Positions 33,143 to 64,000 of a DNA stretch of 64,000 bases are shown in pieces. Numbering within the stretch: the first letter of the stretch is position 1; each line of letters begins with the position of its first letter. The translations under genes and the position numbers were made by a program. The notes beneath the pieces were generated by a model. That model saw only the letters and a list, made by a program, of their open reading frames with translations. It had not been told where the DNA came from and ran no database searches. Origin of the DNA: Phycomyces nitens (Eukaryota; Mucoromycota; Mucoromycetes; Mucorales; Phycomycetaceae); contig JAHRBC010000003.1 in the NCBI GenBank assembly GCA_022702545.1, forward strand, positions 806,001 to 870,000, written 5' to 3'.

Positions 33143-33165
33143 GTGCTTGCACCTCTGTCACATAT

Positions 33166-33197
<32 letters not shown>

Positions 33198-33257
33198 GGC
33201 CCCTGCACAAGGATGACACTAAACTTCTGAGATGGAACGCTCTACGGAGCAGATTTT
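33143..33257 (+). ncRNA. U6 spliceosomal snRNA
   Basis: Begins GTGCTTGC and contains the nearly invariant U6 core: AAAATTGGAACGATACAGAG, with ACAGAGA (33181-33187) for 5' splice-site recognition, AGATTAGCATGGCCCC with the catalytic AGC (33193-33195), and GCACAAGGATGACAC. The 3' part (CTTCTGAGATGGAACGC) differs from the animal/yeast pattern and is followed by a perfect GCTC-TACG-GAGC hairpin before the T-run terminator at about 33254-33262. Intronless. Pol III transcription is expected from the T run. Confidence 0.95.
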
Positions 33258-33262
33258 TTTTT
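33254..33262 (+). terminator. Pol III T-run terminator of U6
   Basis: A run of nine T residues immediately follows the U6 3' hairpin, the normal RNA polymerase III termination signal. Confidence 0.7.
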
Positions 33263-43969: not shown

Positions 43970-44009
43970 CATCGCAGCAGCTCGGTCTTCGGACCATGTC
44001 ACCACTCGG

Positions 44010-44130
44010 TCTTCCTGCACTGTCAAGGCCCAGTCTTCCGCTCTGTTCAATGTTAGTCTTTCTGCACAATTCAATGTTGGTCCTTTGGCGCCGTTCAATG
44101 CAAGTCTTCTTTCTTTGTCCAATCCAGGTC
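44010..44130. repeat. About 24-bp degenerate tandem repeat at outer arm end
   Basis: Units of the type GTTCAATGTTGGTCCTTTGG recur (GTTAGTCTTTCTGCACAATT and so on). The left arm has one more unit than the right arm. Minus-strand translation shows an octapeptide-like periodicity (NGAKGPTLNCAERLTLNRAE). Confidence 0.6.
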
Positions 44131-44336
44131 TTCTGCGCCATTCAGTCCAAAGTCTTTTCGCCTTGCTTGATCTTTGATTGCTTTCTTTGCCCAATTTCAA
44201 TTTCTTTGTTCATTCGGTACTTGTCTTTTTACTTTGTTCAGGTTCATTGTCAAATTTTAACGGATTCCGTACATTCAATTTTTTTTTTAAATGGTCGATA
44301 ATTTGGAAACCAAGCCTCACAAGCGCCCTAGAGGAA

Positions 44337-44600
44337 AGAACATCTACTCATATGCTTGCAACTCCCCTTAGGGCTATCTGTCCTACAGGCATAAGGTACG
44401 TCTTCCCTGATTCTTACCATATAGCAACATATGACTTTGTATATTTCCTTCTTAAGGGCCCGTTGTATTGGGCTATTCCAAAAGATGAAAATATACTAAA
44501 GGCATACGCTGCTGCATAGGATACAGCAAAAGACATACCTTATGCCTGTAGGACAGATAGCCCTAAGGGGAGTTGCCAGCACATGAGTTGGTGTTCTTTC
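44337..44600. repeat. Nested inverted repeat inside the left arm
   Basis: About 65 bp at 44337-44403 (ending GGCATAAGGTACGTC) returns inverted at 44533-44600 (starting GACATACCTTATGCC), with a ~130-bp loop. Both copies can encode ATPLRAICPTGIR followed by a GTAYGT splice-donor-like sequence. The same nested pair occurs in the right arm at about 62965-63210. Confidence 0.8.
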
Positions 44601-44919
44601 CTGGAGGACTCCTGTGGACCATCGTCTTTCATTATATCATCTTTAACATTTTGGACATCTAGAGAAAGATAATACATATATATATTAGTACATGTTCTTC
44701 ATCATAAATCACGAGATCAATAGGTACTTACAGTTCAAATTGTATAAAGGATGCTACCACCACTTTAACCACCGAAGGCGTCTTTCGAGAGATCTTCCTT
44801 CTTGCGGAGGGCGCCTTTTTTTAGCACTCCTCCTTTTTTTCTTGATAGCTTGAAATTTCATTTCAATTCTTCTTTGAATCAAACTCATAATTGGATTCGT
44901 AGGGAACGGCATTGATCTT

Positions 44920-45210
44920 GTCATCAAACTCGGGAAGCAAACTTGGAAGCAAACTTGGAAATCCAACTTTGTACTGAACTCGGCTTCGAACTTGGCCTTG
45001 AACTCGGAAATCCAACTCGACATTGAACTCGGCTTCCAGACCAGACATCAAACCATGCATTGGACTACACTAAACATTGCTTTGGACTTACCTTGAGCCA
45101 TACATTGGACCTTGCAGCAAATATAACACTGGACTTTGCATTAAACTTTGCATTGGACTTGGAGTTGAACTTGGCATCGGAATTGGATTGAGCTCGACAT
45201 TGGACTTTGG
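44920..45210. repeat. 12-bp-period degenerate repeat, outer left arm
   Basis: Successive units such as TTGGACTTTGCA, TTAAACTTTGCA and TTGGACTTGGAG encode a four-residue period on the minus strand (KFNSKSNAKFNAKSS). The counterpart in the right arm is 62380-62600, with different unit order. Confidence 0.6.
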
Positions 45211-45320
45211 CAGGCGTCGATTTGGTATTCGGTTTTTGTACTGTAGACATTTGGTTGACTTGACTTGAAAGATTTCTTGGCTATGGATTGTACCCCTTGC
45301 TTGATTTCAGTCTTCTGTAA

Positions 45321-45876
45321 TAATTTTGACAGTGAATATTCACACTTGGTTAGAGTCAGCGTTTTTACGTTACCTTGACTGAGAAGATTTACCCTGGGTT
45401 GAGATTGGCTTGCGTTTTGAGGATCTCTTGTTGATCCCTGTTTATACACCGGCTGAAGTATGAACAGATTGTGTTCTTTGTTTTGTTGCCATGGATGATA
45501 GGATTTGACAGCCGGATTTTTTTTCTTGATGTAAGCGGGACAGACGGTACACGGGGTAATACAATCCACCACAGCCACCACCTCCACCAGCAGGACCAGC
45601 AAGGCTACCAACAAAGGGAAAATGGAACCGCCAACAGAAACCATGTGCCAATCGAGCGATGCGTCCACCACAATGGGCTGGACAATCAACGGCAGACGGA
45701 TGACCAGACTTGGTTGATCCAAGGCCCTATACAGGCACAAAGGCACTGTAAGTCTTTGGGCGAGAGAAGTACGACTAGCGCACTCAACGGCCTGCCGTTA
45801 GCAAGAACCATTCTTCACTCTCACTGGCATCCTCCAGACGGTGTCCTCTTGTAGTACATAGGCCGGGATAAGGAAA
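45321..45876 (-). other. Possible two-exon gene fragment in left arm (unresolved)
   Basis: Mirror of 61491-62046. The minus strand shows FPYPGLCTTRGHRLEDASES then EEWFLLTAG, a possible 43-nt intron, and a second part with a strongly hydrophobic segment (PLLVALLVLLVEVVAVVDC) after DASLDWHMVSVGGS. The opposite strand is also open for over 120 codons, so coding direction is not decided. No family recognised. Confidence 0.22.
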
Positions 45877-46024
45877 CTAAAGACCGTTTATATAGTTAGT
45901 ATCCAAAATGTCATAAAATACAGTATAATGGAACAAATACTTATCTTAAGGGTTCTCCTTGATGCTGTCACAATCATATGGATTTGAAGGACAATACCAT
46001 CTGGGGCCGTATCGCTGCTTCGGT

Positions 46025-46867
46025 TCACACTGTTCTGTTGGGAGCTCCCTCGTAGATTGCTGGTAGCCTATAAAGTCCCGCCAGTGTTAGTGGTGTTTGT
46101 ATGGATTGTCTTACCCCTGATTTTCTTGATGTCCCGTATTTGATTTCTTGATGAATCGGATGCTTCGTATATGTTCTTGATTGCAGTAGAGGTCCAAGCA
46201 TCCCTTTCCCTCAGCCCAGCGAGATGGCGAGACTCTGGGCTGAACTCTCTTGAGTTGAATGGTTCCTTTGTTCTTGACGATACCTTGTTTGGATTTCTTG
46301 ATAGTGAACCCGGTACGCTGATGATGTCTTGAATGTTTCGGAACCTGGGAAAGGGATATTTGTACGTACTGGTCTCGATCATGCTCAGGGATGGCAGCCA
46401 CAACAATTGAATCATCTTGGATATCTTTTGTATCGGTTTATTTTGTCTTGGGTCGGTAAGCTGTAAGATGTACAGGCTGAGTTGGCTGAATAAGCTTCAT
46501 TGGCTTCATTGGCTGTACGGATGAATGTAGCCGCCGTCCCTTTGCAGAACATATTGTCGGCGGAAGCAGTTGGTGTAAAGAAGACGACCTGGGACCAGCA
46601 TAGGCTTGTTGTCTTGTTGGCTGGTCGTATCCGAGATATCTTGACTTGCGATATAATTCTCGGATCCATTGTTTGAGGTGGCCATTCTTGCGAGTTTATA
46701 TGGCCTCGAGAGTCAGGATTGTTTTTGAGCCAATCCACTTGGAATCGTCTGATGCTTGATCGAGTCGTTCTTGTTTCGACTATTGGCCGTGGATATCTGG
46801 TGTTACTCTCGAGGCCATCGACGGAAAGATTGCTTCTCCTCAATGACAACTGCCATATATAATACAT
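46025..46867 (-). CDS. Putative three-exon gene of unknown function, left copy (248 aa)
   Basis: Mirror image of the right-arm copy at 60500-61342, where the model was worked out: exons of 394, 310 and 43 nt separated by introns of 49 and 47 nt, all in phase. The predicted protein is basic (RIRPANKTTSL, RTGFTIKKSKQGIVKNKGT, RWAEGKGCLDLYCNQEH). The corresponding open frames are residue-identical in the two arms. No family recognised; existence as a gene is inferred from intron borders joining open frames. Confidence 0.38.
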
Positions 46868-47053
46868 GGGCCTTTAGTTGTCAATCGCAACCTGCTACTG
46901 ACAGAAGTAAGCATACTCTGCTCGGTCTGGTCAATCGGTTGATTGTTGCCCATCTAGACCAGTCATCATTCACCTCAAAGAGGTTGGCACAAAATCTGAC
47001 TGCAGTTCTCTTGTATTGCTTGCAACTGCCTTGGGATCCCATGCTTTCTCTCC

Positions 47054-47106
47054 CAGTGACAAGTACAGGGCGGATTGTCGGAAGACTTGATGCGTACTTG
47101 TCACTG
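47054..47106. repeat. 13-bp perfect inverted repeat (left arm copy)
   Basis: CAGTGACAAGTAC at 47054-47066 and GTACTTGTCACTG at 47094-47106, separated by 27 bp. The partner in the right arm is at 60261-60313. Confidence 0.85.
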
Positions 47107-47495
47107 TTGCGATCGAACTACGGTTGGGGTGTCTGTAGAAATCACCTTGTTTTTGCCATCTCCGGTGATTATGCTTGTCTGGGTGTGTGCTTGCGTAGTT
47201 GGACCCAGGAACAGACTCGATTGTACCCCTGTAGCTGATCTTCCGTTACGTCTGTGAGAATCTTGTTGACAATATCTTGCTGTCCTTGGCTTGTTTCTCA
47301 GAAACCTCTCGAGTGCATTGGCTCTATAGATGGATTTACCACAATCCAATAGTAGACTCCTCATAGTCCGGAAAGGACCAATCAGAACCTGGACGCAAGC
47401 TTATAATATCTTGCAAGAGCCGGCAAAGGTCATCCAAAGACTCGAGAAGAATCCAACATGGAGACCAACTCGTTCGGTCCAGACATAACGGCGTA

Positions 47496-47783
47496 ATGGA
47501 CACCGTTACCCCTCAGTATCCATTCTCCCTGGCTCAAGTACAAACCTCAAGCAACCAAGATCTGATAACCAGATCCGCCAGACAAAGACCCAGCCAGCAA
47601 CAGCCTCCAGAACCGTTCCAGAGACTTGACCAACCGGACCACAATGTCCTAACCGGACCCAGAAACAAAGACCTCAGCGGCCCAATACATACCATAACCA
47701 TCTCTTCCAAATCTCGACCTCAGACTCGGAAGGAAGTTGACAAGAACCGTACGAACAGGAAGTTCAAGTCAACCCTACAGTAG
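47496..47783 (+). other. Gln/Pro-rich open frame (left arm copy)
   Basis: 95 codons from MDTVTPQYPFSLAQVQTSSN, rich in Q, P, R and T, in the orientation opposite to the other arm genes. The mirror frame at 59560-59871 is 103 codons because of one stop-codon difference (TAG/CAG). Downstream another frame reads QVNPTVVQAPPSNVDKRQIP. It may be a gag-like remnant; there is no firm evidence of translation. Confidence 0.2.
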
Positions 47784-48340
47784 TGCAAGCACCACCCTCA
47801 AATGTAGACAAACGGCAAATACCAGAGGGAGCCAGGATTGGAAACCAGTCTTGTACCACCGAATGTGACACTCCAATGTAGATCTCCACATCTACCTTCT
47901 CTTTACTATCTATGCCAAGTCAAGAACTCGGAACCAAACTGCCAGGTGGGACGTGGTGTCAACCTCTGAAGAGATTGATAAGCCAGCCCGTTTGAGTCTG
48001 TAACAGCAGGAACCGAACGTAAAGAGGCCACCTCATGGCTTAACTGAAAGAGACAATGTGAATCACCACAAAGGCCAACAGAAAAGTACCATGAAAGGTC
48101 CGGTCACTCGAGCATCTCCATGAAGCTTCAGAAGCTTCCGAATCAACCTTTGTTACCGGCCGCGTCTGACTGGCTCCAGGGCCAGCAGACCGATGATGCG
48201 TCCACTTGGTGAAACGTACGAGCCTTGGGTCTAGATATCAAAACTTCAGAACGATCGGTTTCGCAGATTCCTTACTGCACTTTAGACCCGAGGGTCAAAG
48301 TGAGCTCAGTCACCACTAGCCAACTATCTTCGTCTCGAAA

Positions 48341-50263
48341 TCACTGACCGGCCTTTGGTCGGAGGGCGTACTTCAGGAGCTTCTTAGAATCATCTTTAGG
48401 GACAAGTACTTTTCCTGGCTCGTCAAATTCAGTCACCTCGCACTTGCGCGCAAAGCGAGAAGTGTTTAGCCTAACATGGATAGGCTGGACGACACGAGTT
48501 GTCTTGAGCTCTTCCTCAGCATCCTTTACCTCTTTGCTGCTGGATGCAGCAACAGGCTTGGGAGCCTTGGCCTTCACTGGGAAAGGTACCTTGAATTGAT
48601 CTTCAGGACCCTTGGAAGGTTTTCCCTTGACTGGAAAAGGTGCTTTGAACTGCCCTTCAGGAGCCTTTCCCTTATCACGGCTGGCTGCCGCAACAGGTTC
48701 TGGCTTTTGAGGAGTGCAGTCTTTCACGGCCTTCTCCCTCTCGGTGCTAAGATCCACAGGCTTGAACACCTTTGAAAGCATGCTATTGGAGTAAGCTGCT
48801 CTGCTCTCCAGCTTTGCAGTGGCAGCTCTAGCCTGGTCCAGGATCTTCTGACTGGCGGGCGAAATGACCTTGGATTTACCCTTGGGTTTGGAAAACACCA
48901 TTGGATGCTCCTCGGTCTCATCATCCCCGTCGGCACCTGTCACCAACCCTCGCATACAGGGCTCCTCCTGCTTCTTGCCCAGTACTTTGGCAATGCTGTC
49001 TTTGTTGCTAGGAATTTCCTGGGCCAAGAATTCTCTAACCAGCATCGATCGGTGCTTGCCGACACTCGCATCATCGTCAGCAACCTGCTGCGGCACACAG
49101 GTTGGACTTTCGTTCGTACCAAAATCCTTGCCCGCCGGCTGGGAGGGACCAAGCAGGCTGTCCACTGACACGGATTTTTGGGCGGGAACCACGGACTCTT
49201 CGCCACAAGAGGGATCGTGAATCACCGCATCGTCGTTTTCTTGACCCATGGCAACATTGTCAATGTCCATGGGTTCGGAACATCCTGTGGAGTGAACGTG
49301 TCCGGAAATGCCACCAAGTGAAAGAGATCTTTGTGGGGTGATCTCTTCGTCTGAACCCATAACATCATCAAAGATACCATTTGGATCCACAGTATCAATC
49401 TCCATTGGCTCAAAAAGAGCCGCAGGAACGGTCTCGCAACCGTGAGTCTCCCCTTGCTCAAAGGCTTGGAGATCGTCGACCAACCAGCCCATCGGCTTTT
49501 CTCCATCCAATTCAACAGGATGCACAGGTTCCAGGAAGTAGTGCTCATCGGACGAGCATCTTCCGGCAGGTGCATCTGCCTCGACTTGGACTTCAGGAGC
49601 CTCTGGAGACGAATCGCCATGAGATTCTGTAGAGAAGCTGTTAAACCCCTCATCCATCATCTCGTCCAGGAGCTTGGCATAGGCCCTCAGCTTCCTGAGT
49701 TCCTCTGAGGATTGACTGTCCCAGAAGAAGTCGAGCTGTACGTTGGGCTCAGTCTCTTCACAGCTCTCCGTAAGCTCAGTAGACACACCGTCGTCCAGAG
49801 GAGCATGGGTTGCCCCATCAGTACCAGCCACGCCGTTGACTGGGAACACTATCACGGAACTGTCACCAGCTGCTACAATAGAGTAACAGCGGTGTGGGAT
49901 ATATCCCCGAACGTCTGCAACAAATGACGAGGAAGAGTCCCCTACGTCAATGGATTCCGCGTCCAAAGACGAACCAGCAGATTCCAAGGAATCCACGCAG
50001 TTTGACACATGGCTAAGGGTTGTCTTTCCAGTGTCCTTGATGTGACCTTCGACCAGGCCATCATCATCAAAGCGGGTCTTGTTCACTGGGGCAGCGTCCA
50101 TGCCGAGTGCAGAGGGACGTCTTCGAGCAGGTTTGGCCATGCTGAAAGCAGAGGGCAAAGGAGAAGCGGCCAACATCATCATGGGGATGACGAGGCAAAG
50201 TGGGGCAAGAATGGAGTATAGCCATTTGGCTGTTTTGAAAGCGTTGTAGAGCTTGGGATTCAT
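48341..50263 (-). CDS. Unknown secreted/membrane-anchored acidic protein, left copy (640 aa)
   Basis: Intronless 640-codon gene, mirrored at 57104-59026. Start chosen at MNPKLYN (50263) rather than the in-frame ATG at 50308, because the preceding AAAA context is favourable and a TATATAAAAG box lies about 65 bp upstream. Residues about 14-40 are a signal peptide or anchor (WLYSILAPLCLVIPMMMLAA, then SPLPSAFSMA). The centre is acidic and Ser-rich with repeated MEID(T/N)V-type segments (PMEIDTVDPNGIFDDVMG; PMDIDNVAM). The C-terminal third is basic and has a repeat QFKAPFPVKGK / QFKVPFPVKAK, ending KKLLKYALRPKAGQ. No family recognised. It differs from the right copy at 8 residues, with 1 silent change; both copies are intact. 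Confidence 0.8.
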   Translation of the reverse strand: MNPKLYNAFKTAKWLYSILAPLCLVIPMMMLAASPLPSAFSMAKPARRRPSALGMDAAPVNKTRFDDDGLVEGHIKDTGKTTLSHVSNCVDSLESAGSSLDAESIDVGDSSSSFVADVRGYIPHRCYSIVAAGDSSVIVFPVNGVAGTDGATHAPLDDGVSTELTESCEETEPNVQLDFFWDSQSSEELRKLRAYAKLLDEMMDEGFNSFSTESHGDSSPEAPEVQVEADAPAGRCSSDEHYFLEPVHPVELDGEKPMGWLVDDLQAFEQGETHGCETVPAALFEPMEIDTVDPNGIFDDVMGSDEEITPQRSLSLGGISGHVHSTGCSEPMDIDNVAMGQENDDAVIHDPSCGEESVVPAQKSVSVDSLLGPSQPAGKDFGTNESPTCVPQQVADDDASVGKHRSMLVREFLAQEIPSNKDSIAKVLGKKQEEPCMRGLVTGADGDDETEEHPMVFSKPKGKSKVISPASQKILDQARAATAKLESRAAYSNSMLSKVFKPVDLSTEREKAVKDCTPQKPEPVAAASRDKGKAPEGQFKAPFPVKGKPSKGPEDQFKVPFPVKAKAPKPVAASSSKEVKDAEEELKTTRVVQPIHVRLNTSRFARKCEVTEFDEPGKVLVPKDDSKKLLKYALRPKAGQ

Positions 50264-51260
50264 TTTTGATAAACGACTTGAGAAACAGAGAAAAGGGAAA
50301 ATTGTCAAGACGTCTCTCTTTTATATAAAAAAAGGCGTTTTCAATCGCGTCAGCAATATCCTTGGCGTGATTATTGAACAGATTGACCCCAAAAGGCCAT
50401 GCTTATCTCTATATTTTACTGCTTTCGGCAACAGATCGTGGGAGCCATGGCAACGATTCGTGGAAACCAAGGTGACGTGATTGATCTATTGGCTGTAATT
50501 AATTCCATGTCAAAATGCGTGTAACATCGTGTCAAAATGAACTGTGATGGTAGAGTGTTTGACTGATTATGAGCAAAAAGTAGTTATTGAGGAAGTAAAG
50601 AAGTAAAGAAGTAAAGAAAATCAGACTTGTTGGTGTTCCTGTAACATTAAAAAGTCCAAGAAGAGCGATTTTGTACTTTGTTTTGTTACGCCGAAATGGT
50701 CTGTGCGTTACTTGGAAAGGTGCATTAGGAGCACACAAATAAATTGATAGCCACTTGAAAGTCTGTTTTAATGAGTGGCCAAGAAAAACAAGAGTAATTT
50801 AGAACAGCACAGTCAATGATGAGACATAACATCACTAATGAACTCTTATTAAGATGAGATATATCTGAAATAAATATAAAGTCATGTTTTCCAATTATAT
50901 GTGGAGCATATTTTGAAAATATATTACAGTTCTCGAGTTATTTTTATTAAATAAATATATCAGCGATACTACACAAGCTAAACTCGATCATCTTTTATAT
51001 AAGATTGTATAAAAAAGCCAGTTTAATAAATTTATCCCATTACAAAGATCTCAAAAGTCGATATTGGAGAAAAGAGGTGTGTGAATTATATGGATTTTAA
51101 CTGTATTGTTTTGCCTACAAATAAAACCTATATAATTTAATTATAAACCTGGATTATTAACAGTACCCTAATACTTGTAGACTTCTTCCCTTAATACCAT
51201 AATGGCATGAACTGCTCCTCGCATATTTTAGCCTGTATTATTACTTACGATTAGTAAAAT
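50264..51260. other. Left arm: 640-aa gene promoter and AT-rich spacer
   Basis: TATATAAAAG-type box in inverse orientation at about 50321-50330. The remainder is AT-rich. A 68-codon minus-strand frame (50532-50738, RRNKTKYKIALLGLFNVTGT) is identical in both arms but of unknown meaning. Confidence 0.4.
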
Positions 51261-51261
51261 A

Positions 51262-51500
51262 CACAATCAAACTCGTCGGTATCTCTTGAAGCTGGTACTC
51301 TTGCCCTTGCTGTATGATTAAGATATATGCATTGTTTGTCAACAGGGATAATATGTGGGCTATTTGATGCTTAAACTGTCATTGGTCTATTATGATGCTT
51401 TTTCTAGCTCTCAACTAGTTTCGACTTATGACAAGGATTATTGTCTTTTTGGTAGGTAAACTCTCTGTCATGAAGTTCATTCAAGTAACTAAAGAGGCAA
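51262..51500 (-). pseudogene. Tc1-like transposase C-terminal fragment (left arm)
   Basis: Minus-strand text LNELHDREFTYQKDNNPCHK then SKLVES matches the Tc1 pattern with the second catalytic Asp (QDN-PxHKSK), followed after stops by a degraded WPPxSPxLxPI block (ASNSPHIIPVDKQ). Mirror copy at 55867-56105. Confidence 0.75.
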
Positions 51501-51661
51501 CAATTGTATGTCGTACCTAACACAATTGGTGTTGACTCCGTTACGACTACATATGTGGTATAGGATCTCTGAGCCGCGCTTTTTTTTTTTGAAAATATAT
51601 ATATAATAAATTTCTCTATTCCTTTGTCTCTCATATCTTTTCAAGCCGCGCACTGTGGACT

Positions 51662-52587
51662 AAATGAATAGCAATGAATTCTCACCAGAGTAGATCATCA
51701 AGGTTATTAAGCTCTGTCAACAAGCACAACAACGATAGAGAGATTATGAACGAGACGAACTCCCCAAAGAACTCTACAAAGATTTGAAAGAGTCTTCAAC
51801 GAAACGTCTCAAATTCAACATTAACAGATTCGCAAAAGATACCCTCTATTTTGAGGGCGGTAAATGGACCAAGTCAGGAGCCATCAATCAGATATTCGTC
51901 CAAGACCTCAAGAAATATACGATGGATGCCCATCAAATTGTATAGGGCAAATATAAGGATGGTAACAAACTCCGGGTTACTGGAAGAGTGGCAAGTGAAA
52001 TCTTCCTTGATCTTAAACACATCAGAGCCAGATGAGGCAGTGCTAACGACGCAACCGATATGGAAGACATTGTCGAGAAAGTCAGACATTTGGCCGTTTA
52101 TGAATTTTTCATGGAAAAGGTGCTTTATGAAGACGCCAAAGACATTGGTATCCGAAAAATGAAGCTCCCAACAAGAGCAATATATCTCAAAAATAAAAAA
52201 GACAATAACAAGGACATGGCCTTTGATCACGAGTGGGTGGGGAAAATCCAACAGGCAAGATACGAAGGATCAGTTCTTCAAAGTGCAGTCAGCAATAAGA
52301 GAGGAGGCAATTTTTTTGGTAAAGGACAATTCAATTACTCAGAAAATCATTTTTTGAGAGAGGAAAATTGGCTCCCCCAGGTCCCAGTACACGGCAGTAC
52401 ACACCAGCCAAAAACAACAACATTTCATCTAGTATTACATCCAGTTTCTCCAATAAATTCCCAAGTACCGTTTCACACAGACACATCTATAGTTCCACAA
52501 TCAATCTCGGTCCCACAACAACACTACAACATTCCAATAGATGAAATTCCTCCAGGAGGACAATTGAGCAATTTTCTAGTAACATGA
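51662..52587 (+). pseudogene. DIRS gag-like gene
   Basis: Pieces in shifting frames: LKESSTKRLKFNINRFAKDT, GGKWTKSGAINQIFVQDLKK, then an intact stretch 52060-52587 starting MEDIVEKVRHLAVYEFFMEK and containing the Gly/Phe-rich RGGNFFGKGQFNYSENH and a Pro/Gln tail. Position before the reverse transcriptase and nucleic-acid-binding-like composition support gag. At least two disruptions. Confidence 0.65.
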
Positions 52588-52683
52588 AAAAACACTATTA
52601 ATCAGCAATAGCTGATAATGGTAGTAGATCAAAGGTACAGAATACAGTAGACGCCGTCCCCGATATTGTGAAGAACCAAACCA

Positions 52684-54348
52684 TTGTCATTACCACCAGA
52701 AGACCAGAAAGAGGTGGATTTAGCAGTGGAGAAATTCAGGAACTCGGATGTGATTGAGATACTTCCTACACCAAACGAGAACTACTTGTCCCAGTTCTTT
52801 ATCGTCAGAGAAACCAACAAATTCCGACCGATTCTGGACTGCAAGCGGATCAATCAATTCATTCAATCACATTCCTTTAAGATGGAAGGAGTGTCTGCCC
52901 TGAGATATCATAGAGCCAAGAAATTTAATGACAAAGATAGACTTGAAAGATGCGTACATAGGTGTACTGGTTTACGAGGAATCCAGACATTTTCTCACAT
53001 TTTCTCACAAGGGCACAGTGCCACAATACAAGTCTCTCTCATCCGGAATGAATGTGACCCCGAAAATATTTTCAAAACTCATGAGATATATAATGGGTCT
53101 TATTCGGAAGAAGAGTATCCGACTGGTCAACTACTTGGACGATATATTTATGCTGAAAAAAAAAACTAAGTTGGAGATGAAACAGCAGTCATCTCAGGAT
53201 ATAAGACACCTAACTTCTCTGGGCTATCTGATCAACTGGCAGAAGAGAGCATTAATACCTTTATACAAACAGGAATTACTCGGCTTTCTATTCAATACCA
53301 AGAACATGGAAATAAAGGTTCCGAGCAAGAATATGTCCAACTTGAATATCCGAGTCAAACAAGCCTTCACACAAGTGAAATCATGCCGATGGATTACCAG
53401 CTTGGTAAGGAAAATGACGGCTATGATTCCAGCAATAGGAAGGTCACTACAAAACGACAAGTACTTATAGAGATACTGCTCAAGATCACTTCAAGCAAAG
53501 TTATCAAGATGGGAAGCGCACTGTCCATTATTGCAAGACACCAAAAAGGAATTGACATGGTGGATAGAAAAAAGAGATACCGTAAACGGGGTCCCGATAA
53601 GAAAGCCAATACCACCACCAGCAGCAGAAGCAGCAATCACAATACACATCGACACATCCTACTCGGGTTGAGGAGTCTCCTCCCAAAAGATCCAAACAGC
53701 CGCTTATTAGACAGCAGAAAAAAGATAAGATTCCATCAATGCCAGGGAATTTAAGAATATACTAATTTCTCTACAGCTCCGTGCACGATGATTCAGAAAC
53801 TCCAGCATAATAGTATACACATACAGCACCACAGCACTAAAGTATACTCACAAGTCAGGAGGGACAGCATCCCAATTGCTACAAGACCTAACGTTGGAGA
53901 TACACAATATTTGCAACTTGCACCATTTGACAGTACAATATCGACATATACCAAGGGTAACAAATAGGCCAGCCGATCAACTAAGTCGACAAAGGGCACC
54001 AATTTACGAGTGGATTTTATCCAAGACATGGTTTAAGCAGATTAAAAAGACCTTAAAGTGCAGATTAGAAATAGGCGCCTTTGCCGCAAGACACAACTGA
54101 AAGATATCAATATTTTGGAGTTTGCTTCTAGACCCAGAAGCCGAGGCCCAAGACCCCTTTCAACAACAACGACCAAAAGTAGGACTCTACCTCCACACTC
54201 TATAAAAACTTATTCTCAGAGTATTTCAACGGTTAAACGAACAAAAGATGGACAAATCAAACTTGATAGCTTAGAATTGGCCAACACAATTTTGGTGGTT
54301 GATGCTTTTGAGGATGACCATTTCCTAGCAATCTCACAGTCCATTTGA
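52684..54348 (+). pseudogene. DIRS reverse transcriptase-RNase H
   Basis: RT motifs in order: LSQFFIVRETNKFRPILDCK, a frameshift near 52905, MTKIDLKDAYIGVLVYEESR, HFLTFSHKGTVPQYKSLSSG and the active-site segment RLVNYLDDIFML, then NWQKRALIPLYKQELLGF. The RNase H-like part shows ITIHIDTSYSG and later KSGGTASQLLQDLTLEIHN and RVTNRPADQLSRQR. The similarity ends near an altered TQPWWLMLLRMT block at about 54290. Several frameshifts and stops. Confidence 0.85.
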
Positions 54349-54780
54349 CAGAACATGACTTCTCAATGCATGGATATCATCCCCAAGAAACAAGAGACAA
54401 AAGGGCTGGAGGACGAGATTTCAAACTTCCCCACCGAAGCAAAAAGATACAGTACACAGCGAATATACAATTATGAATGAATAAGATGACCAGTGTCACG
54501 CCGTGTTTGTGGTTCTCCGTCTTCTGTCCATATCGAAAGCACACCATCTTCTTAACAATTGGCATGCCACCCTTTTCAAGAGTGAGCACTCCATATTTTT
54601 ACTAAGCAACCTTTCCCGAATTCTTCCATTTTAATTAATATAAATACCAACCAAGATCTAACGAAATAAATTATCGAATTAAACCCTTTACAACTTTCTC
54701 TTACCTTTGCTTCTACGTTTCTTCCTGAAGAACAATTCCATTTGCTTGCTAAGCTACGAATTGCTGGATATTTACGTCAG

Positions 54781-54783
<3 letters not shown>

Positions 54784-54834
<51 letters not shown>

Positions 54835-54858
54835 CTTTCTCTCTCTACTCTTTCTCTC
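54784..54858. repeat. CT microsatellite inside the DIRS element
   Basis: About 24 uninterrupted CT units followed by CTCTACTCTTT variants. Confidence 0.9.
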
Positions 54859-55023
54859 TCTTCGTCTATCTTCTTGGACACTTCTTGTCTAAAGACAACA
54901 CACCGCGTGACACCAGCATGGCGTGAGCGTCAAGAACCACGAATAAATTCAGAAGATTATTAGCCTTTACAAGTTGTACAATATCTAGTATTTCTAAAAT
55001 ACCAATCAACATTGATATTAAAC

Positions 55024-55860
55024 ATGGCAAGATCAGCTATCGCCTTAGTAGACAAAGTCACCCATCCGCCAGAAATACCACTTGCCGAGTATCCACTTAT
55101 ACAGGAGTTTTTTAAAGCAAGAAAAATCAACTTTTACACTACTCAATATAAGCAACGAGACGCGGAAGTTCATCCGGTATTAATTATGTTAGAATTGTGG
55201 AAATCAAGTGACATTATAACATTGACAAATCTACAGAAGAAAAGCCGTGATGTTGATAAACCTGGCAACTATGTGGAGATCAAACTCTGATATTAGTATG
55301 CTACATTCGAGATGTTACATTACATTACAACGAGGATGAACATATATTATGAGCTACCTTAATAGCCCGAGAGTCAAAAGAAGCCCGAAAAAAATATTGA
55401 AAGTAGGAATAACCAGAGCTGTGCGGATATGCTCCGTCAAGATATTGGAACTGTTTATCAAGAGAGCCAATGCATTGCGAACACAATTGCAAGTCGATCA
55501 TACTCTAATTCTCGGGCATATTAAGTCAGACAACCATATCCCTGTGAGGCCAGTCACAATGGCAAGTTGGGTGACAAGTACCATGAGCGATGCCGGAATC
55601 GACACCAAGAAGTATACGGCGCATTTGACAAGGTAGGCTGTAAGTGCTCATGCAATTCTTTAAGGAATACTACTTGAAGAAGTTAAATAGCATGCACACT
55701 GGAGCTCATCCCATAACACTTTTGAACAATATTATTTTAAGCCGAATGACCAACATTCAAGGGGGGACATCACAGAAGCCTTATTTTTGCCAAGTACTGA
55801 GAACAGTACCACATATGTAGTCGTAACGGAGTCAACACCAATTGTGTTAGGTACGACATA
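55024..55860 (+). pseudogene. DIRS tyrosine recombinase
   Basis: N-terminal part MARSAIALVDKVTHPPEIPL, then EYPLIQEFFKARKINFYTTQ. The catalytic domain follows with shifts: MASWVTSTMSDAGIDTKKYT, AHLTR (HxxR box), HAHWSSSHNTFEQYYFKP containing the nucleophilic Tyr context, and a tail ALFLPSTENSTTYVVVTEST that crosses the palindrome junction at 55807. Stops in the catalytic region show it is inactive. Confidence 0.8.
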
Positions 55861-55866
55861 CAATTG

Positions 55867-56105
55867 TTGCCTCTTTAGTTACTTGAATGAACTTCATGAC
55901 AGAGAGTTTACCTACCAAAAAGACAATAATCCTTGTCATAAGTCGAAACTAGTTGAGAGCTAGAAAAAGCATCATAATAGACCAATGACAGTTTAAGCAT
56001 CAAATAGCCCACATATTATCCCTGTTGACAAACAATGCATATATCTTAATCATACAGCAAGGGCAAGAGTACCAGCTTCAAGAGATACCGACGAGTTTGA
56101 TTGTG
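55867..56105 (+). pseudogene. Tc1-like transposase C-terminal fragment (right arm)
   Basis: Mirror of 51262-51500: YLNELHDREFTYQKDNNPCH then KSKLVES, stop, and a degraded continuation. The N-terminal transposase part is missing; its place is taken by the DIRS tail. Confidence 0.75.
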
Positions 56106-57036
56106 TATTTTACTAATCGTAAGTAATAATACAGGCTAAAATATGCGAGGAGCAGTTCATGCCATTATGGTATTAAGGGAAGAAGTCTACAAGTATTAGG
56201 GTACTGTTAATAATCCAGGTTTATAATTAAATTATATAGGTTTTATTTGTAGGCAAAACAATACAGTTAAAATCCATATAATTCACACACCTCTTTTCTC
56301 CAATATCGACTTTTGAGATCTTTGTAATGGGATAAATTTATTAAACTGGCTTTTTTATACAATCTTATATAAAAGATGATCGAGTTTAGCTTGTGTAGTA
56401 TCGCTGATATATTTATTTAATAAAAATAACTCGAGAACTGTAATATATTTTCAAAATATGCTCCACATATAATTGGAAAACATGACTTTATATTTATTTC
56501 AGATATATCTCATCTTAATAAGAGTTCATTAGTGATGTTATGTCTCATCATTGACTGTGCTGTTCTAAATTACTCTTGTTTTTCTTGGCCACTCATTAAA
56601 ACAGACTTTCAAGTGGCTATCAATTTATTTGTGTGCTCCTAATGCACCTTTCCAAGTAACGCACAGACCATTTCGGCGTAACAAAACAAAGTACAAAATC
56701 GCTCTTCTTGGACTTTTTAATGTTACAGGAACACCAACAAGTCTGATTTTCTTTACTTCTTTACTTCTTTACTTCCTCAATAACTACTTTTTGCTCATAA
56801 TCAGTCAAACACTCTACCATCACAGTTCATTTTGACACGATGTTACACGCATTTTGACATGGAATTAATTACAGCCAATAGATCAATCACGTCACCTTGG
56901 TTTCCACGAATCGTTGCCATGGCTCCCACGATCTGTTGCCGAAAGCAGTAAAATATAGAGATAAGCATGGCCTTTTGGGGTCAATCTGTTCAATAATCAC
57001 GCCAAGGATATTGCTGACGCGATTGAAAACGCCTTT

Positions 57037-57046
57037 TTTTATATAA
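57037..57046 (+). promoter_or_regulatory. TATA box of the 640-aa gene
   Basis: TATATAAAAG at 57040-57049, about 60 bp upstream of the chosen ATG at 57104. The mirror site is present in the left arm. Confidence 0.5.
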
Positions 57047-57103
57047 AAGAGAGACGTCTTGACAATTTTCCCTTTTCTCTGTTTTTCAAGTCGTTTATCA
57101 AAA

Positions 57104-59026
57104 ATGCATCCCAAGCTCTACAACGCTTTCAAAACAGCCAAATGGCTATACTCCATTCTTGCCCCACTTTGCCTCGTCATCCCTATGATGATGTTGGCCG
57201 CTTCTCCTTTGCCCTCTGCTTTCAGCATGGCCAAACCTGCTCGAAGACGTCCCTCTGCACTCGGCATGGACGCTGCCCCAGTGAACAAGACCCGCTTTGA
57301 TGATGATGGCCTGGTCGAAGGTCACATCAAGGACACTGGAAAGACAACCCTTGGCCATGTGTCAAACTGCGTGGATTCCTTGGAATCTGCTGGTTCGTCT
57401 TTGGACGCGGAATCCATTGACGTAGGGGACTCTTCCTCGTCATTTGTTGCAGACGTTCGGGGATATATCCCACACCGCTGTTACTCTATTGTAGCAGCTG
57501 GTGACAGTTCCGTGATAGTGTTCCCAGTCAACGGCGTGGCTGGTACTGATGGGGCAACCCATGCTCCTCTGGACGACGGTGTGTCTACTGAGCTTACGGA
57601 GAGCTGTGAAGAGACTGAGCCCAACGTACAGCTCGACTTCTTCTGGGACAGTCAATCCTCAGAGGAACTCAGGAAGCTGAGGGCCTATGCCAAGCTCCTG
57701 GACGAGATGATGGATGAGGGGTTTAACAGCTTCTCTACAGAATCTCATGGCGATTCGTCTCCAGAGGCTCCTGAAGTCCAAGTCGAGGCAGATGCACCTG
57801 CCGGAAGATGCTCGTCCGATGAGCACTACTTCCTGGAACCTGTGCATCCTGTTGAATTGGATGGAGGAAAGCCGATGGGCTGGTTGGTCGACGATCTCCA
57901 AGCCTTTGAGCAAGGGGAGACTCACGGTTGCGAGACCGTTCCTGCGGCTCTTTTTGAGCCAATGGAGATTGATACTGTGGATCCAAATGGTATCTTTGAT
58001 GATGTTATGGATTCAGACGAAGAGATCACCCCACAAAGATCTCTTTCACTTGGTGGCATTTTCGGACACGTTCACTCCACAGGATGTTCCGAACCCATGG
58101 ACATTGACGATGTTGCCATGGGTCAAGAAAACGACGATGCGGTGATTCCCGATCCCTCTTGTGGCGAAGAGTCCGTGGTTCCCGCCCAAAAATTCGTGTC
58201 AGTGGACAGCCTGCTTGGTCCCTCCCAGCCGGCGGGCAAGGATTTTGGTACGAACGAAAGTCCAACCTGTGTGCCGCAGCAGGTTGCTGACGATGATGCG
58301 AGTGTCGGCAAGCACCGATCGATGCTGGTTAGAGAATTCTTGGCCCAGGAAATTCCTAGCAACAAAGACAGCATTGCCAAAGTACTGGGCAAGAAGCAGG
58401 AGGAGCCCTGTATGCGAGGGTTGGTGACAGGTGCCGACGGGGATGATGAGACCGAGGAGCATCCAATGGTGTTTTCCAAACCCAAGGGTAAATCCAAGGT
58501 CATTTCGCCCGCCAGTCAGAAGATCCTGGACCAGGCTAGAGCTGCCACTGCAAAGCTGGAGAGCAGAGCAGCTTACTCCAATAGCATGCTTTCAAAGGTG
58601 TTCAAGCCTGTGGATCTTAGCACCGAGAGGGAGAAGGCCGTGAAAGACTGCACTCCTCAAAAGCCAGAACCTGTTGCGGCAGCCAGCCGTGATAAGGGAA
58701 AGGCTCCTGAAGGGCAGTTCAAAGCACCTTTTCCAGTCAAGGGAAAACCTTCCAAGGGTCCTGAAGATCAATTCAAGGTACCTTTCCCAGTGAAGGCCAA
58801 GGCTCCCAAGCCTGTTGCTGCATCCAGCAGCAAAGAGGTAAAGGATGCTGAGGAAGAGCTCAAGACAACTCGTGTCGTCCAGCCTATCCATGTTAGGCTA
58901 AACACTTCTCGCTTTGCGCGCAAGTGCGAGGTGACTGAATTTGACGAGCCAGGAAAAGTACTTGTCCCTAAAGATGATTCTAAGAAGCTCCTGAAGTACG
59001 CCCTCCGACCAAAGGCCGGTCAGTGA
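57104..59026 (+). CDS. Unknown secreted/membrane-anchored acidic protein, right copy (640 aa)
   Basis: Right-arm twin of the gene at 48341-50263, beginning MHPKLYNAFKTAKW. Same architecture: N-terminal hydrophobic signal or anchor, acidic Ser-rich centre, basic Lys/Pro-rich C-terminal third with the QFKxPFPVK repeat. Eight amino-acid differences from the left copy: N2H, a Ser to Gly near TTL(S/G)HV, a Glu to Gly in LDG(E/G)KP, Gly to Asp in DVM(G/D)SD, Ser to Phe in GGI(S/F)GHV, Asn to Asp in DID(N/D)V, His to Pro in VI(H/P)DP, and Ser to Phe in AQK(S/F)V; one silent Pro codon change. Neither copy has a stop or indel. Function unknown; no enzyme motif seen. Confidence 0.8.
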   Translation: MHPKLYNAFKTAKWLYSILAPLCLVIPMMMLAASPLPSAFSMAKPARRRPSALGMDAAPVNKTRFDDDGLVEGHIKDTGKTTLGHVSNCVDSLESAGSSLDAESIDVGDSSSSFVADVRGYIPHRCYSIVAAGDSSVIVFPVNGVAGTDGATHAPLDDGVSTELTESCEETEPNVQLDFFWDSQSSEELRKLRAYAKLLDEMMDEGFNSFSTESHGDSSPEAPEVQVEADAPAGRCSSDEHYFLEPVHPVELDGGKPMGWLVDDLQAFEQGETHGCETVPAALFEPMEIDTVDPNGIFDDVMDSDEEITPQRSLSLGGIFGHVHSTGCSEPMDIDDVAMGQENDDAVIPDPSCGEESVVPAQKFVSVDSLLGPSQPAGKDFGTNESPTCVPQQVADDDASVGKHRSMLVREFLAQEIPSNKDSIAKVLGKKQEEPCMRGLVTGADGDDETEEHPMVFSKPKGKSKVISPASQKILDQARAATAKLESRAAYSNSMLSKVFKPVDLSTEREKAVKDCTPQKPEPVAAASRDKGKAPEGQFKAPFPVKGKPSKGPEDQFKVPFPVKAKAPKPVAASSSKEVKDAEEELKTTRVVQPIHVRLNTSRFARKCEVTEFDEPGKVLVPKDDSKKLLKYALRPKAGQ

Positions 59027-59559
59027 TTTCGAGACGAAGATAGTTGGCTAGTGGTGACTGAGCTCACTTTGACCCTCGGGTCTAAAGTGCAGTAAGGAAT
59101 CTGCGAAACCGATCGTTCTGAAGTTTTGATATCTAGACCCAAGGCTCGTACGTTTCACCAAGTGGACGCATCATCGGTCTGCTGGCCCTGGAGCCAGTCA
59201 GACGCGGCCGGTAACAAAGGTTGATTCGGAAGCTTCTGAAGCTTCATGGAGATGCTCGAGTGACCGGACCTTTCATGGTACTTTTCTGTTGGCCTTTGTG
59301 GTGATTCACATTGTCTCTTTCAGTTAAGCCATGAGGTGGCCTCTTTACGTTCGGTTCCTGCTGTTACAGACTCAAACGGGCTGGCTTATCAATCTCTTCA
59401 GAGGTTGACACCACGTCCCACCTGGCAGTTTGGTTCCGAGTTCTTGACTTGGCATAGATAGTAAAGAGAAGGTAGATGTGGAGATCTACATTGGAGTGTC
59501 ACATTCGGTGGTACAAGACTGGTTTCCAATCCTGGCTCCCTCTGGTATTTGCCGTTTGT

Positions 59560-59871
59560 CTACATTCGAGGGTGGTGCTTGCACTGCTGTAGGGTTGACT
59601 TGAACTTCCTGTTCGTACGGTTCTTGTCAACTTCCTTCCGAGTCTGAGGTCGAGATTTGGAAGAGATGGTTATGGTATGTATTGGGCCGCTGAGGTCTTT
59701 GTTTCTGGGTCCGGTTAGGACATTGTGGTCCGGTTGGTCAAGTCTCTGGAACGGTTCTGGAGGCTGTTGCTGGCTGGGTCTTTGTCTGGCGGATCTGGTT
59801 ATCAGATCTTGGTTGCTTGAGGTTTGTACTTGAGCCAGGGAGAATGGATACTGAGGGGTAACGGTGTCCAT
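59560..59871 (-). other. Gln/Pro-rich open frame (right arm copy)
   Basis: 103-codon mirror of 47496-47783, eight codons longer because the left-arm TAG reads CAG here. Composition Q/P/R/T-rich. Translation not supported by other evidence. Confidence 0.2.
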
Positions 59872-60260
59872 TACGCCGTTATGTCTGGACCGAACGAGTT
59901 GGTCTCCATGTTGGATTCTTCTCGAGTCTTTGGATGACCTTTGCCGGCTCTTGCAAGATATTATAAGCTTGCGTCCAGGTTCTGATTGGTCCTTTCCGGA
60001 CTATGAGGAGTCTACTATTGGATTGTGGTAAATCCATCTATAGAGCCAATGCACTCGAGAGGTTTCTGAGAAACAAGCCAAGGACAGCAAGATATTGTCA
60101 ACAAGATTCTCACAGACGTAACGGAAGATCAGCTACAGGGGTACAATCGAGTCTGTTCCTGGGTCCAACTACGCAAGCACACACCCAGACAAGCATAATC
60201 ACCGGAGATGGCAAAAACAAGGTGATTTCTACAGACACCCCAACCGTAGTTCGATCGCAA

Positions 60261-60313
60261 CAGTGACAAGTACGCATCAAGTCTTCCGACAATCCGCCCT
60301 GTACTTGTCACTG
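60261..60313. repeat. 13-bp perfect inverted repeat (right arm copy)
   Basis: CAGTGACAAGTAC at 60261-60273 and GTACTTGTCACTG at 60301-60313, mirror of the left arm. Confidence 0.85.
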
Positions 60314-60499
60314 GGAGAGAAAGCATGGGATCCCAAGGCAGTTGCAAGCAATACAAGAGAACTGCAGTCAGATTTTGTGCCAACCTCTTTGAGGTGAATG
60401 ATGACTGGTCTAGATAGGCAACAATCAACCGATTGACCAGACCGAGCAGAGTATGCTTACTTCTGTCAGTAGCAGGTTGCGATTGACAACTAAAGGCCC

Positions 60500-61342
60500 A
60501 TGTATTATATATGGCAGTTGTCATTGAGGAGAAGCAATCTTTCCGTCGATGGCCTCGAGAGTAACACCAGATATCCACGGCCAATAGTCGAAACAAGAAC
60601 GACTCGATCAAGCATCAGACGATTCCAAGTGGATTGGCTCAAAAACAATCCTGACTCTCGAGGCCATATAAACTCGCAAGAATGGCCACCTCAAACAATG
60701 GATCCGAGAATTATATCGCAAGTCAAGATATCTCGGATACGACCAGCCAACAAGACAACAAGCCTATGCTGGTCCCAGGTCGTCTTCTTTACACCAACTG
60801 CTTCCGCCGACAATATGTTCTGCAAAGGGACGGCGGCTACATTCATCCGTACAGCCAATGAAGCCAATGAAGCTTATTCAGCCAACTCAGCCTGTACATC
60901 TTACAGCTTACCGACCCAAGACAAAATAAACCGATACAAAAGATATCCAAGATGATTCAATTGTTGTGGCTGCCATCCCTGAGCATGATCGAGACCAGTA
61001 CGTACAAATATCCCTTTCCCAGGTTCCGAAACATTCAAGACATCATCAGCGTACCGGGTTCACTATCAAGAAATCCAAACAAGGTATCGTCAAGAACAAA
61101 GGAACCATTCAACTCAAGAGAGTTCAGCCCAGAGTCTCGCCATCTCGCTGGGCTGAGGGAAAGGGATGCTTGGACCTCTACTGCAATCAAGAACATATAC
61201 GAAGCATCCGATTCATCAAGAAATCAAATACGGGACATCAAGAAAATCAGGGGTAAGACAATCCATACAAACACCACTAACACTGGCGGGACTTTATAGG
61301 CTACCAGCAATCTACGAGGGAGCTCCCAACAGAACAGTGTGA
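60500..61342 (+). CDS. Putative three-exon gene of unknown function, right copy (248 aa)
   Basis: Model: exons 60500-60893, 60943-61252 and 61300-61342 with GTACAT...AAAAG and GTAAGA...TATAG introns of 49 and 47 nt; phases join and the frame ends in TGA. Recognisable segments: MYYIWQLSLRRSNLSVDGLE, FQVDWLKNNPDSRGHINSQE, TFIRTANEANEAYSANSAYI, VVAAIPEHDRDQYVQISLSQ and RVSPSRWAEGKGCLDLYC. An alternative last-exon frame (YQQSTRELPTEQCEPKQRYG) is also open for about 40 codons. Upstream frames at 60003-60266 (SSLFLGPTTQAHTQTSIITG) could be earlier exons. No domain recognised. Confidence 0.4.
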
Positions 61343-61490
61343 ACCGAAGCAGCGATACGGCCCCAGATGGTATTGTCCTTCAAATCCATATGATTGTGAC
61401 AGCATCAAGGAGAACCCTTAAGATAAGTATTTGTTCCATTATACTGTATTTTATGACATTTTGGATACTAACTATATAAACGGTCTTTAG

Positions 61491-62046
61491 TTTCCTTATC
61501 CCGGCCTATGTACTACAAGAGGACACCGTCTGGAGGATGCCAGTGAGAGTGAAGAATGGTTCTTGCTAACGGCAGGCCGTTGAGTGCGCTAGTCGTACTT
61601 CTCTCGCCCAAAGACTTACAGTGCCTTTGTGCCTGTATAGGGCCTTGGATCAACCAAGTCTGGTCATCCGTCTGCCGTTGATTGTCCAGCCCATTGTGGT
61701 GGACGCATCGCTCGATTGGCACATGGTTTCTGTTGGCGGTTCCCTTTTCCCTTTGTTGGTAGCCTTGCTGGTCCTGCTGGTGGAGGTGGTGGCTGTGGTG
61801 GATTGTATTACCCCGTGTACCGTCTGTCCCGCTTACATCAAGAAAAAAAATCCGGCTGTCAAATCCTATTATCCATGGCAACAAAACAAAGAATACAATC
61901 TGTTCATACTTCAACCGGTGTATGAACAGGGATCAACAAGAGATCCCCGAAATGCAAGCCAATCTCAACCCAGGATAAATATTCTCAGTCAAGGTAACGT
62001 AAAAACGCTGACTTTATCCAAGTGTGAATACTCACTATCAAAATGA
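61491..62046 (+). other. Possible two-exon gene fragment in right arm (unresolved)
   Basis: Exon-like 61491-61578 (after TTTAG) joins across a 43-nt GT-AG interval to a frame 61622-62046 with a long hydrophobic stretch (FPLLVALLVLLVEVVAVVDC) then PCTVCPAYIKKKNPAVKS. It then meets the tandem repeats at 61.98 kb. Opposite strand also open. Not assigned. Confidence 0.22.
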
Positions 62047-62360
62047 TTATAGATGACTGAAAGCAAGGAAGGGTATAGACCCACTCCAAAGCCGATCCCA
62101 AAGGGTGGAATCCAGACCATGGGCAGAGTTCCACAGTCAAGGTAAAGTTAAAATGCTGACTCTAACCAATCATGAATACTCACTGTTAATATGATTACAG
62201 ATGACTGAAATCAAGGAAGGGTATAGACCCACTGCCGAGCAGATTCCAAAAAGTGGAATCCAAACCATGGACAGAGTCCCACAGTCAAGGTAAAGTCAAA
62301 ACGCTGACTCGAAAAAGTATGAATACTCATCATCAATATAATTACAGGGGACTGATCCAA
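61985..62360 (+). repeat. About 147-bp tandem repeat with intron-like borders
   Basis: The unit recurs 2.5 times; copies begin GTCAAGGTAACG (about 61987), GTCAAGGTAAAG (about 62131) and GTCAAGGTAAAG (about 62282). Each holds a GTAA...TTA(C/T)AG interval of about 60 bp, then a segment translating as EGYRPTPKPIPKGGIQTM or EGYRPTAEQIPKSGIQTM. The left arm has fewer copies, accounting for much of the 185-bp length difference. Confidence 0.75.
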
Positions 62361-62964
62361 ATAATTGTATACCTGCCAAGTTCAAAACCAAGTCCAATGC
62401 AAAGTTTAATGCAAAGTCCAGTGCTATGTTTGCTGTAAAGTCCAATGTATGACTCAAGGTAAGGTATACAGCTATTTAGTGCATTCCAAAGCACAGTTCA
62501 GTGTCTAGTCTGGAAGCCAAGTTCAATGTCGAGTTGGATTTCAAAGTTCAAGACCAAGTCCAAAGTCGAGTTCAGTACCAAGTTGGATTGCCAAGTTTGA
62601 TTCCAAGTTTGCTTCCCGAGTTTGATGACAAAATCAATGCTGTTCCTTACAAATCCGATTATGAGTTTGATTCAAAGAAGAATTGAAATGAAATTTCAAA
62701 CGATCAAGAAAAAAGGAGGAGTGCTAAAAAAAGGCGCCCTCCGCAAGAAGGAAGATCTCTCGAAAGACGCCTTCGGTGGTTAAAGTGGTGGTAGCATCCT
62801 TTATACAATTTGAACTGTAAGTACCTATTGATCTCTTGTGATTTATGATGAAGAACATGTACTAATATATATATATATATTATCTTTCTCTAGATGTCCA
62901 AAATGTTAAAGATGACATAATGAAAGACGATGGTCCACAGGAGTCCTCCAGGAAAGAACACCAA

Positions 62965-63215
62965 CTCATGTGCTTGCAACTCCCCTTAGGGCTATCTGTC
63001 CTACAGGCATAAGGTATGTCTTTTGCTGTATCCTATGCAGCAGCGTATGCCTTTAGTATATTTTCATCTTTTGGAATAGCCCAATACAACGGGCCCTTAA
63101 GAAGGAAATATACAAAGTCATATGTTGCTATATGGTAAGAATCAGGGAAGACGTACCTTATGCCTGTAGAACAGATAGCCTTAAGGGGAGTTGCAAGCAT
63201 ATGAGTAGATGTTCT
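62965..63215. repeat. Nested inverted repeat inside the right arm
   Basis: Mirror of 44337-44600; the two ~65-bp arms surround a loop encoding FPDSYHIATYDFVYFLLKGP on the minus strand. Confidence 0.8.
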
Positions 63216-63557
63216 TTCCTCTAGGGCACTTGTGAGGCTTGGTTTCCAAATTATCGACCATTTAAAAAAAATTGAATGTACGGAATCCGTTAAAATTTGA
63301 CAATGAACCTGAACAAAGTAAAAAGACAAGTACCGAATGAACAAAGAAATTGAAATTGGGCAAAGAAAGCAAGCAAAGATCAAGCAAGGAAAAAAAGACT
63401 TTGGACTGAATGGCGCAGAAGACTTGGATTGGACAAAGAAAGAATACTTGCATTGAACGGCGCCAAAGGACCAACATTGAGGATAGCTGAAGACCGACCC
63501 TTGACAGTGCTGGAAGACTGAGCAGTGACATAGCCCGAAGACAAAGCTGCCGCGATG

Positions 63558-64000
63558 CTGTACTTTGGCGAGAACTTGGTAGAATTACAATTTTGAGGTC
63601 TGGGGGGCGGGAATATATGGTCTCCACCTTCTCGTGGTTATTCCTGTGAGTAGAAGCTTGTTGCTTTGAAACCAAGAGAGACCCTCCATAAGATATATTG
63701 TTATATAGTACACTATAGAGACATGACCAGAAATTGTAAATATTATAATAAAATACCTACCGTTTATTCTGATTTTAGTCCATTTCATTAGCTTGCAGTT
63801 GAAAATGCATGATAGTCCATGAATTCGCATTTATTTCGCTTACTTTGACAAGGTAGTCTCAGTACCCTAGAGAGGTCTTGTAAGTTTCAAAAGTTACTTT
63901 TTTTATTGAAATGAGCATTTAGTTTGAAGATGCCAAACTTTGTTGAGATTAACGATAATCTATAGTCTATATGAAAGGAATGGACATATGGCTGCTGTTT
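63558..64000. other. Right flank of the palindrome
   Basis: No match to the left flank and no recognised gene. AT-rich after 63680. Confidence 0.45.

Follow-up and report, generated by a model that had tools for sequence, protein, structure and literature searches.

A 19.6-kb palindrome around a DIRS1-like retrotransposon remnant in Phycomyces nitens, most likely a recent inverted duplication within a dispersed gene-carrying repeat family

The 64,000-nt stretch of the Phycomyces nitens genome analyzed here (the window; C5:806001-870000, in an assembly of 11 contigs totaling 48.98 Mb) contains a 19.6-kb palindrome whose arms each carry a 640-amino-acid (aa) single-exon open reading frame (ORF) and enclose a remnant of a DIRS1-like retrotransposon. 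A P. nitens glycerol kinase (512 aa) aligned to this assembly in four blocks, two of them at 100%; in the remaining two, the listed identities (83.196% of 363 and 89.116% of 147) amount to exactly the 302 and 131 query residues covered, the deficit being due to read-through of introns. The genome is accordingly that of P. nitens or of a very close relative. The palindrome is real. BLASTN comparison of the window with itself aligned the inner arms (45294-51560 with 62073-55807, minus strand) over 6267 bp at 99.49% identity and with no gaps, so that paired positions sum to 107367 (45294 + 62073), as a preliminary description of this DNA had reported. The outer arms (44071-45176 with 63480-62374) aligned over 1112 columns at 94.69% identity with seven gaps, and a smaller outer patch (44201-44800) was also ~99% alike between the arms. 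The near-perfect 7.6-kb arms of that description therefore hold for ~6 kb of each arm but not for the outer 1.1 kb, which is only 94.7% alike and has net insertions and deletions (indels) because the right arm has extra 148-bp repeats (61986-62355, + strand), in tandem in that arm only. The left arm occupies 43969-51502 (+ strand) and the right arm 55865-63558 (- strand); the right end, previously placed at 63557, proved to lie farther out, with homology to C6 members of the repeat family continuing to C5:870528, 528 bp beyond the window. When low-complexity sequence was filtered, 20 block-shuffled windows yielded inverted matches of at most 30 bp (43.6 bits), and positions 1-43900 of the real sequence yielded at most 19 bp; chance is therefore excluded as a source of the palindrome. 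Without the filter, a 60-bp AT-rich stretch (22664-22723) also pairs with itself.

The core (51503-55864, + strand) is a decayed and truncated relative of DIRS1-like retrotransposons. Its left terminus (51503-51560, + strand) begins with ATT and is the exact reverse complement, at 58 of 58 bp, of its left internal complementary region (ICR; 55807-55864, - strand), which lies ~4.3 kb away and ends at the 3-bp circular junction. The arms join the core at the outer edges of the element, and the innermost 58 bp of each arm, as aligned above, are part of the retrotransposon itself. A reverse transcriptase (RT) fragment was found at 52904-53470 (E = 2.3e-11); in six other ORF pieces of the core nothing scored above cut-off and a recombinase was not detected, and a ~425-bp dispersed repeat is nested at 54488-54914. 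Matches of the core to related elements were mostly 79-87%, reaching 92% for the copy beside the family locus C6_2648. Two relatives on C9 (C9:3334k, L029; C9:304k, L031) carry both RT and a tyrosine recombinase (PF00589), and C9:3334k has all of the termini, its two ICRs sharing a 3-bp overlap (AAT), as described for DIRS1-like elements (PMC3266345). The first fungal DIRS1-like retrotransposon was reported from Phycomyces blakesleeanus (PMC3783388).

The window copy thus has the ATT start and the complementary left terminus and left ICR of DIRS1-like elements, and its relatives have the ICR overlap, RT and tyrosine recombinase; unlike complete elements, it is decayed, is flanked by inverted host arms and lacks the right ICR and right inverted terminal repeat (ITR), and was therefore classified as a truncated derivative. 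The element is cut off at the circular junction, exactly where the inverted arm starts. Among five DIRS copies with a judgeable right end, three keep the right terminus and two stop at the junction, namely the window copy and C9:304k (L031 283-4301), which ends exactly at this point with neither a right terminus nor an inverted flank. The junction between the arm and the left terminus is also present at the family loci C6_2648 and C6_2371, the latter of which retains the right end of the element.

The 640-aa ORF lies at 48341-50263 (- strand) in the left arm and at 57104-59026 (+ strand) in the right. Nine of 1920 sites differ between the two, in agreement with the divergence of under 0.5% first described for the coding part; eight of these differences are nonsynonymous and one is synonymous, which is too few to read and gives no sign of constraint. 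Twelve close loci, including both arms, carry the ORF, together with older fragments, and the reading frame is intact in 8 of the 11 copies aligned (both arms and nine others). A crude count over 54 copy pairs, the arm-arm pair excluded, gave ratios of nonsynonymous to synonymous change (dN/dS) of 0.30-0.63, and these sequence comparisons suggest weak purifying selection. Identity among copies is mosaic, falling to 75-80% in parts of 49201-49800. The protein had no Pfam family, and at E ≤ 0.001 only five relatives were found among 7994 candidates scored, four in P. nitens and one in P. blakesleeanus. The AlphaFold2 model had a mean confidence score (pLDDT) of 32.9, with an N-terminal helix (residues 3-33) at about 60. 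Nine further ORFs of the left arm had no Pfam match above cut-off, so that none of the ten scanned did. A second protein-coding gene in the outer 4.3 kb of the arm was considered and rejected, given that an excess of third-position changes at variable sites occurs only over the 640-aa ORF and that Pfam matches are absent; we read this portion as probably non-coding, save for possible spliced genes with little phase signal.

The arm is one unit of a dispersed repeat family. Its outer module (43969-46242, + strand; ~2.3 kb) contains an imperfect 270-bp hairpin (44332-44602; mirror copy at 62950-63220) and the 148-bp repeats, has no codon signature, and was found at 40 or more loci on 7 of the 11 contigs (a lower bound, with both window arms counted), mostly at 87-96% identity and at 73-86% for pieces of a few loci. 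The arm thus recurs elsewhere in the genome, but its outer edges differ and fall into two subfamilies. Ten close copies besides the window arms were retrieved. Three units on C1 are 96-97% alike, and C6_2626 and C6_2648 are mirror images of 99.9% identity. In 300-bp bins over 45301-50700, identity of family copies to the left arm varied from 75% to 100%, the copies being mosaics, and their inner ends fade out at differing places. Loci on C7 and C4 retain the outer module but have an ORF of ~700 aa, which on C7 is barely alignable with that of the window (32% over 107 aa); the module is therefore better conserved than the gene.

All three C1 units are bordered on the inner side by an 838-bp sequence, which recurs on the outer side in inverted orientation, either as a copy or as a piece only. 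At C1_2944 the inverted copies are 92.96% identical (L024 2281-3117 with L024/L025, C1:2954249-2955083) and no target-site duplication was seen at the two ends of the sequence, and at C1_2906 the outer piece is only 82 bp. The sequence had no match in the window palindrome or its retrieved flanks; on C1 it may reflect a further inverted exchange or mark where a mobile unit ends. A separate ~1.15-kb repeat in the left flank of the window (40071-41238) also occurs near other family loci. Two C7 loci are enclosed by direct copies of it with spacings of 16.3 and 16.7 kb, but a 16-kb element bounded by such copies and carrying the unit was rejected, as the C7 and C4 units align over only ~8.5 kb.

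The two arms of the palindrome are themselves mosaic. Outside ~43969, the left arm resembles C5_1829, C5_1072 and the three C1 copies (subfamily A), whereas the outer end of the right arm resembles five C6 copies and continues alongside them past the window (subfamily B). The homogenized part spans 45498-51560 (+ strand) in the left arm, with an outer boundary between 45497 and 45623, and the mirror positions 55807-61869 (- strand; sum 107367) in the right, where the 148-bp repeats adjoin its outer edge. At the edge (45299-45497), the arms differ at 18 positions in 199 bp; comparison with the nine other aligned copies showed 6 of these to be private to one arm, 10 to be shared variants and 2 to be neither. 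Farther inward (45623-51560) only 14 differences occur in 5.9 kb, all within 45623-50282 and none in 50283-51560, and 11 of them are private (7 left, 4 right) and 3 shared. The edge differences are thus dense and mostly older variants, whereas the inner ones are sparse and mostly private new mutations (Fisher p = 0.016). Taken with the subfamily mosaic, this indicates a recent common source for the inner arms but not for the outer ends. Ten of the 14 inner differences are C-to-T, in mixed contexts; they are too few to decide on repeat-induced or CpG-type mutation, which was set aside.

A second palindrome, with the same anatomy as that of the window and with the opposite polarity, lies on C6 (C6:2629822-2659370; 29.5 kb). 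Its 13.3-kb arms (C6:2629822-2643126 and 2646067-2659370, inverted) are 99.90% identical over 13,307 columns, and its center is an element whose ~350-bp terminal repeats are inverted here, whereas at least four further copies, all on C7, have them in direct orientation. From 2629970 inward, the arms show no substitutions and four one-base indels. Eight substitutions and one indel are clustered at the outer edge, which joins a different paralog, and at each of them the left arm agrees with C6:2915840-2932994. Collinearity of that locus with the palindrome extends over 17.3 kb (95.3% identity) and includes the inverted terminal repeat; past the repeat, the palindrome enters its own inverted left flank, whereas C6:2915840-2932994 enters an inverted second element. 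The inverted pair of terminal repeats is 96.9% alike in that locus as against 100% in the palindrome. Judged from this collinearity, C6:2915840-2932994 looks like the paralogous unrearranged state, providing a before/after comparison for the C6 palindrome. A third inverted pair, of pseudogenized relatives (C5:3879401-3885154 and 3913087-3918591; 99.1-99.4% alike, ~28 kb apart, with a third copy at 3.94 Mb), may be an older product of the same kind of event. Across the family, 7 of 9 pairs of neighboring loci within 110 kb are inverted (p = 0.09), an excess that is only suggestive.

Taken as a whole, the window palindrome is most likely a recent inverted duplication of one member of the dispersed gene-carrying family. 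A recent fold-back rearrangement was among the readings first offered for this locus, and it fits the data best: on balance, and with modest confidence, we favor an origin in which the inverted repeats of the retrotransposon primed fold-back copying of the flank, and recombination with a family member in inverted orientation closed the product. The DIRS1-like element had inserted at the inner end of the left family copy, as the occurrence of the same junction in two other copies shows. A break or a stalled replication fork to the right of the 58-bp inverted pair may then have occurred, the strand end folding back on the pair and synthesis running out of the element along the left arm to yield an inverted copy. 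The new strand would have annealed, near the 148-bp repeats, to an inverted family member already present at the right, closing the gap; closure at such a site would account for a right arm that is new inside and of subfamily B outside, the mosaic observed. Point mutations have since accumulated in both arms, as their private differences show. In both the window and the C6 palindromes, an inverted repeat pair lies at the edges of the spacer and both arms extend from it, and in the window the arms are nearly identical and recent. The evidence requires no function of the palindrome, its effect being one added gene copy and two copies left alike.

Fold-back annealing of inverted repeats and inverted duplication primed by it have been demonstrated in yeast mutants (PMC10164571, PMC10622511). 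The fold-back inverted duplications of Saccharomyces cerevisiae share with the window palindrome a central inverted repeat pair with a spacer and a mirrored flank; unlike them, it is interstitial in a chromosome-scale contig, its outer edge is closed inside a homologous repeat family, and its repeat pair comes from a DIRS1-like element and is only 58 bp long. In Dictyostelium, a duplication is bordered by DIRS-1, for which unequal crossing-over between repeats was the route proposed (PMC2643946); DIRS at duplication borders is common to both, but the window has an inverted duplication around one element. In the literature covered, which consisted of titles and the beginnings of abstracts and took in few subscription journals, no report of a DIRS-seeded palindrome from a fungus was found. 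The gene-bearing arms of ampliconic Y-chromosome palindromes are also alike, perhaps through arm-to-arm exchange; the present case differs in lying on a fungal contig and in having shorter arms, a transposable-element core and a recent origin.

Several observations weigh against a fold-back origin. The break and the fold-back synthesis are inferred, and a strictly unrearranged counterpart of the window locus was not found, the element being truncated at C6_2648 and deleted at C6_2371. C9:304k is truncated at the junction without an inverted flank, so a palindrome is not needed for such truncation. The Alu repeats of PMC10164571 were longer than 58 bp and the events required long single-stranded DNA in a mutant, while those of PMC10622511 required loss of Sae2 or Mre11 and proceeded through dicentric chromosomes. 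For interstitial closure, a second inverted copy is required, itself only inferred. The inverted copies C6_2913 and C6_2821 are 98.2% alike over 6 kb though ~90 kb apart, so high identity does not need fold-back, and gene conversion between the arms would explain their identity equally well.

Under this last alternative, which we regard as possible but clearly less probable, two family members already stood tail to tail around the DIRS-like element, for example because the ICR of one element had recombined with another element's left terminus, and later arm-to-arm gene conversion homogenized the inner 6 kb. The A/B outer mosaic and the boundary at ~45.5 kb are consistent with it, as are the mosaic structure of family copies elsewhere and the inverted orientation of most neighboring pairs; in addition, one junction is common to three DIRS-bearing copies, which could therefore have recombined with one another. 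However, two steps are needed, one of which is still an exchange between the same two inverted repeats of the element, and in the C6 before/after pair the inverted flank starts exactly at the outer end of the element's repeat. A boundary and a mosaic are seen, yet a single recent copying event would look the same, and fold-back is not sharply distinguished by the data from later conversion of an older tail-to-tail pair.

An assembly artefact, with one arm assembled twice, is improbable for the window. Both flanks of its palindrome are rich in dispersed repeats, which makes assembly harder, and the C6 palindrome is free of inner substitutions, as a duplicated contig end would be, which therefore leaves room for an assembly fault at that locus. 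However, the window arms differ by 14 inner substitutions, with private ones in each arm, and end in different subfamilies, which argues against a read-level fold-back artefact, and the flanks, which do not resemble each other, both lie on a single 8.05-Mb contig. Least likely of all, and very doubtful, is a large foldback transposon or a centromeric inverted repeat, both raised earlier, or another transposon carrying cargo, for although the arms are dispersed repeats with conserved modules and the inverted 838-bp flanks leave a unit bounded by inverted repeats possible on C1, that sequence is unmatched here and showed no target-site duplication at C1_2944, the ten other close copies lack an inverted second arm within the stretches retrieved, save for the C6 pair, outer ends are of two kinds and inner ends fade at differing places, no scanned left-arm ORF reached the Pfam cut-off, and family members lie at many places on seven contigs, not one per contig, most of those examined with an intact reading frame. 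A ribosomal DNA palindrome, also raised earlier, is not supported by the Rfam search, which at gathering thresholds found only a U6 spliceosomal RNA gene in the window (33145-33258, + strand). An ORF at 37857-38399 showed a sub-threshold match to a Tc5-type transposase DNA-binding domain (E = 5.4e-4; 20.3 bits against a cut-off of 22.2).

The natural origin of large palindromes has mostly been inferred from yeast mutants and tumors. Here, one genome holds two gene-bearing palindromes on inverted-repeat elements together with a paralogous before-like locus, so the fold-back model becomes testable in natural isolates. We tentatively propose, as a conjecture less likely to be right than wrong, that in P. 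nitens the inverted terminal repeats of resident retroelements repeatedly give rise to palindromes in a single large gene family restricted to Phycomyces, adding and homogenizing copies, with the DIRS1-like ICR doubling as a chromosomal fold-back primer; two palindromes, those of the window and of C6:2629822-2659370, fit such repeated seeding directly. If the fold-back model is right, DIRS1-like elements would have a new role in genome change, and the model would suggest how a family of genes of unknown function gains copies and keeps them alike.

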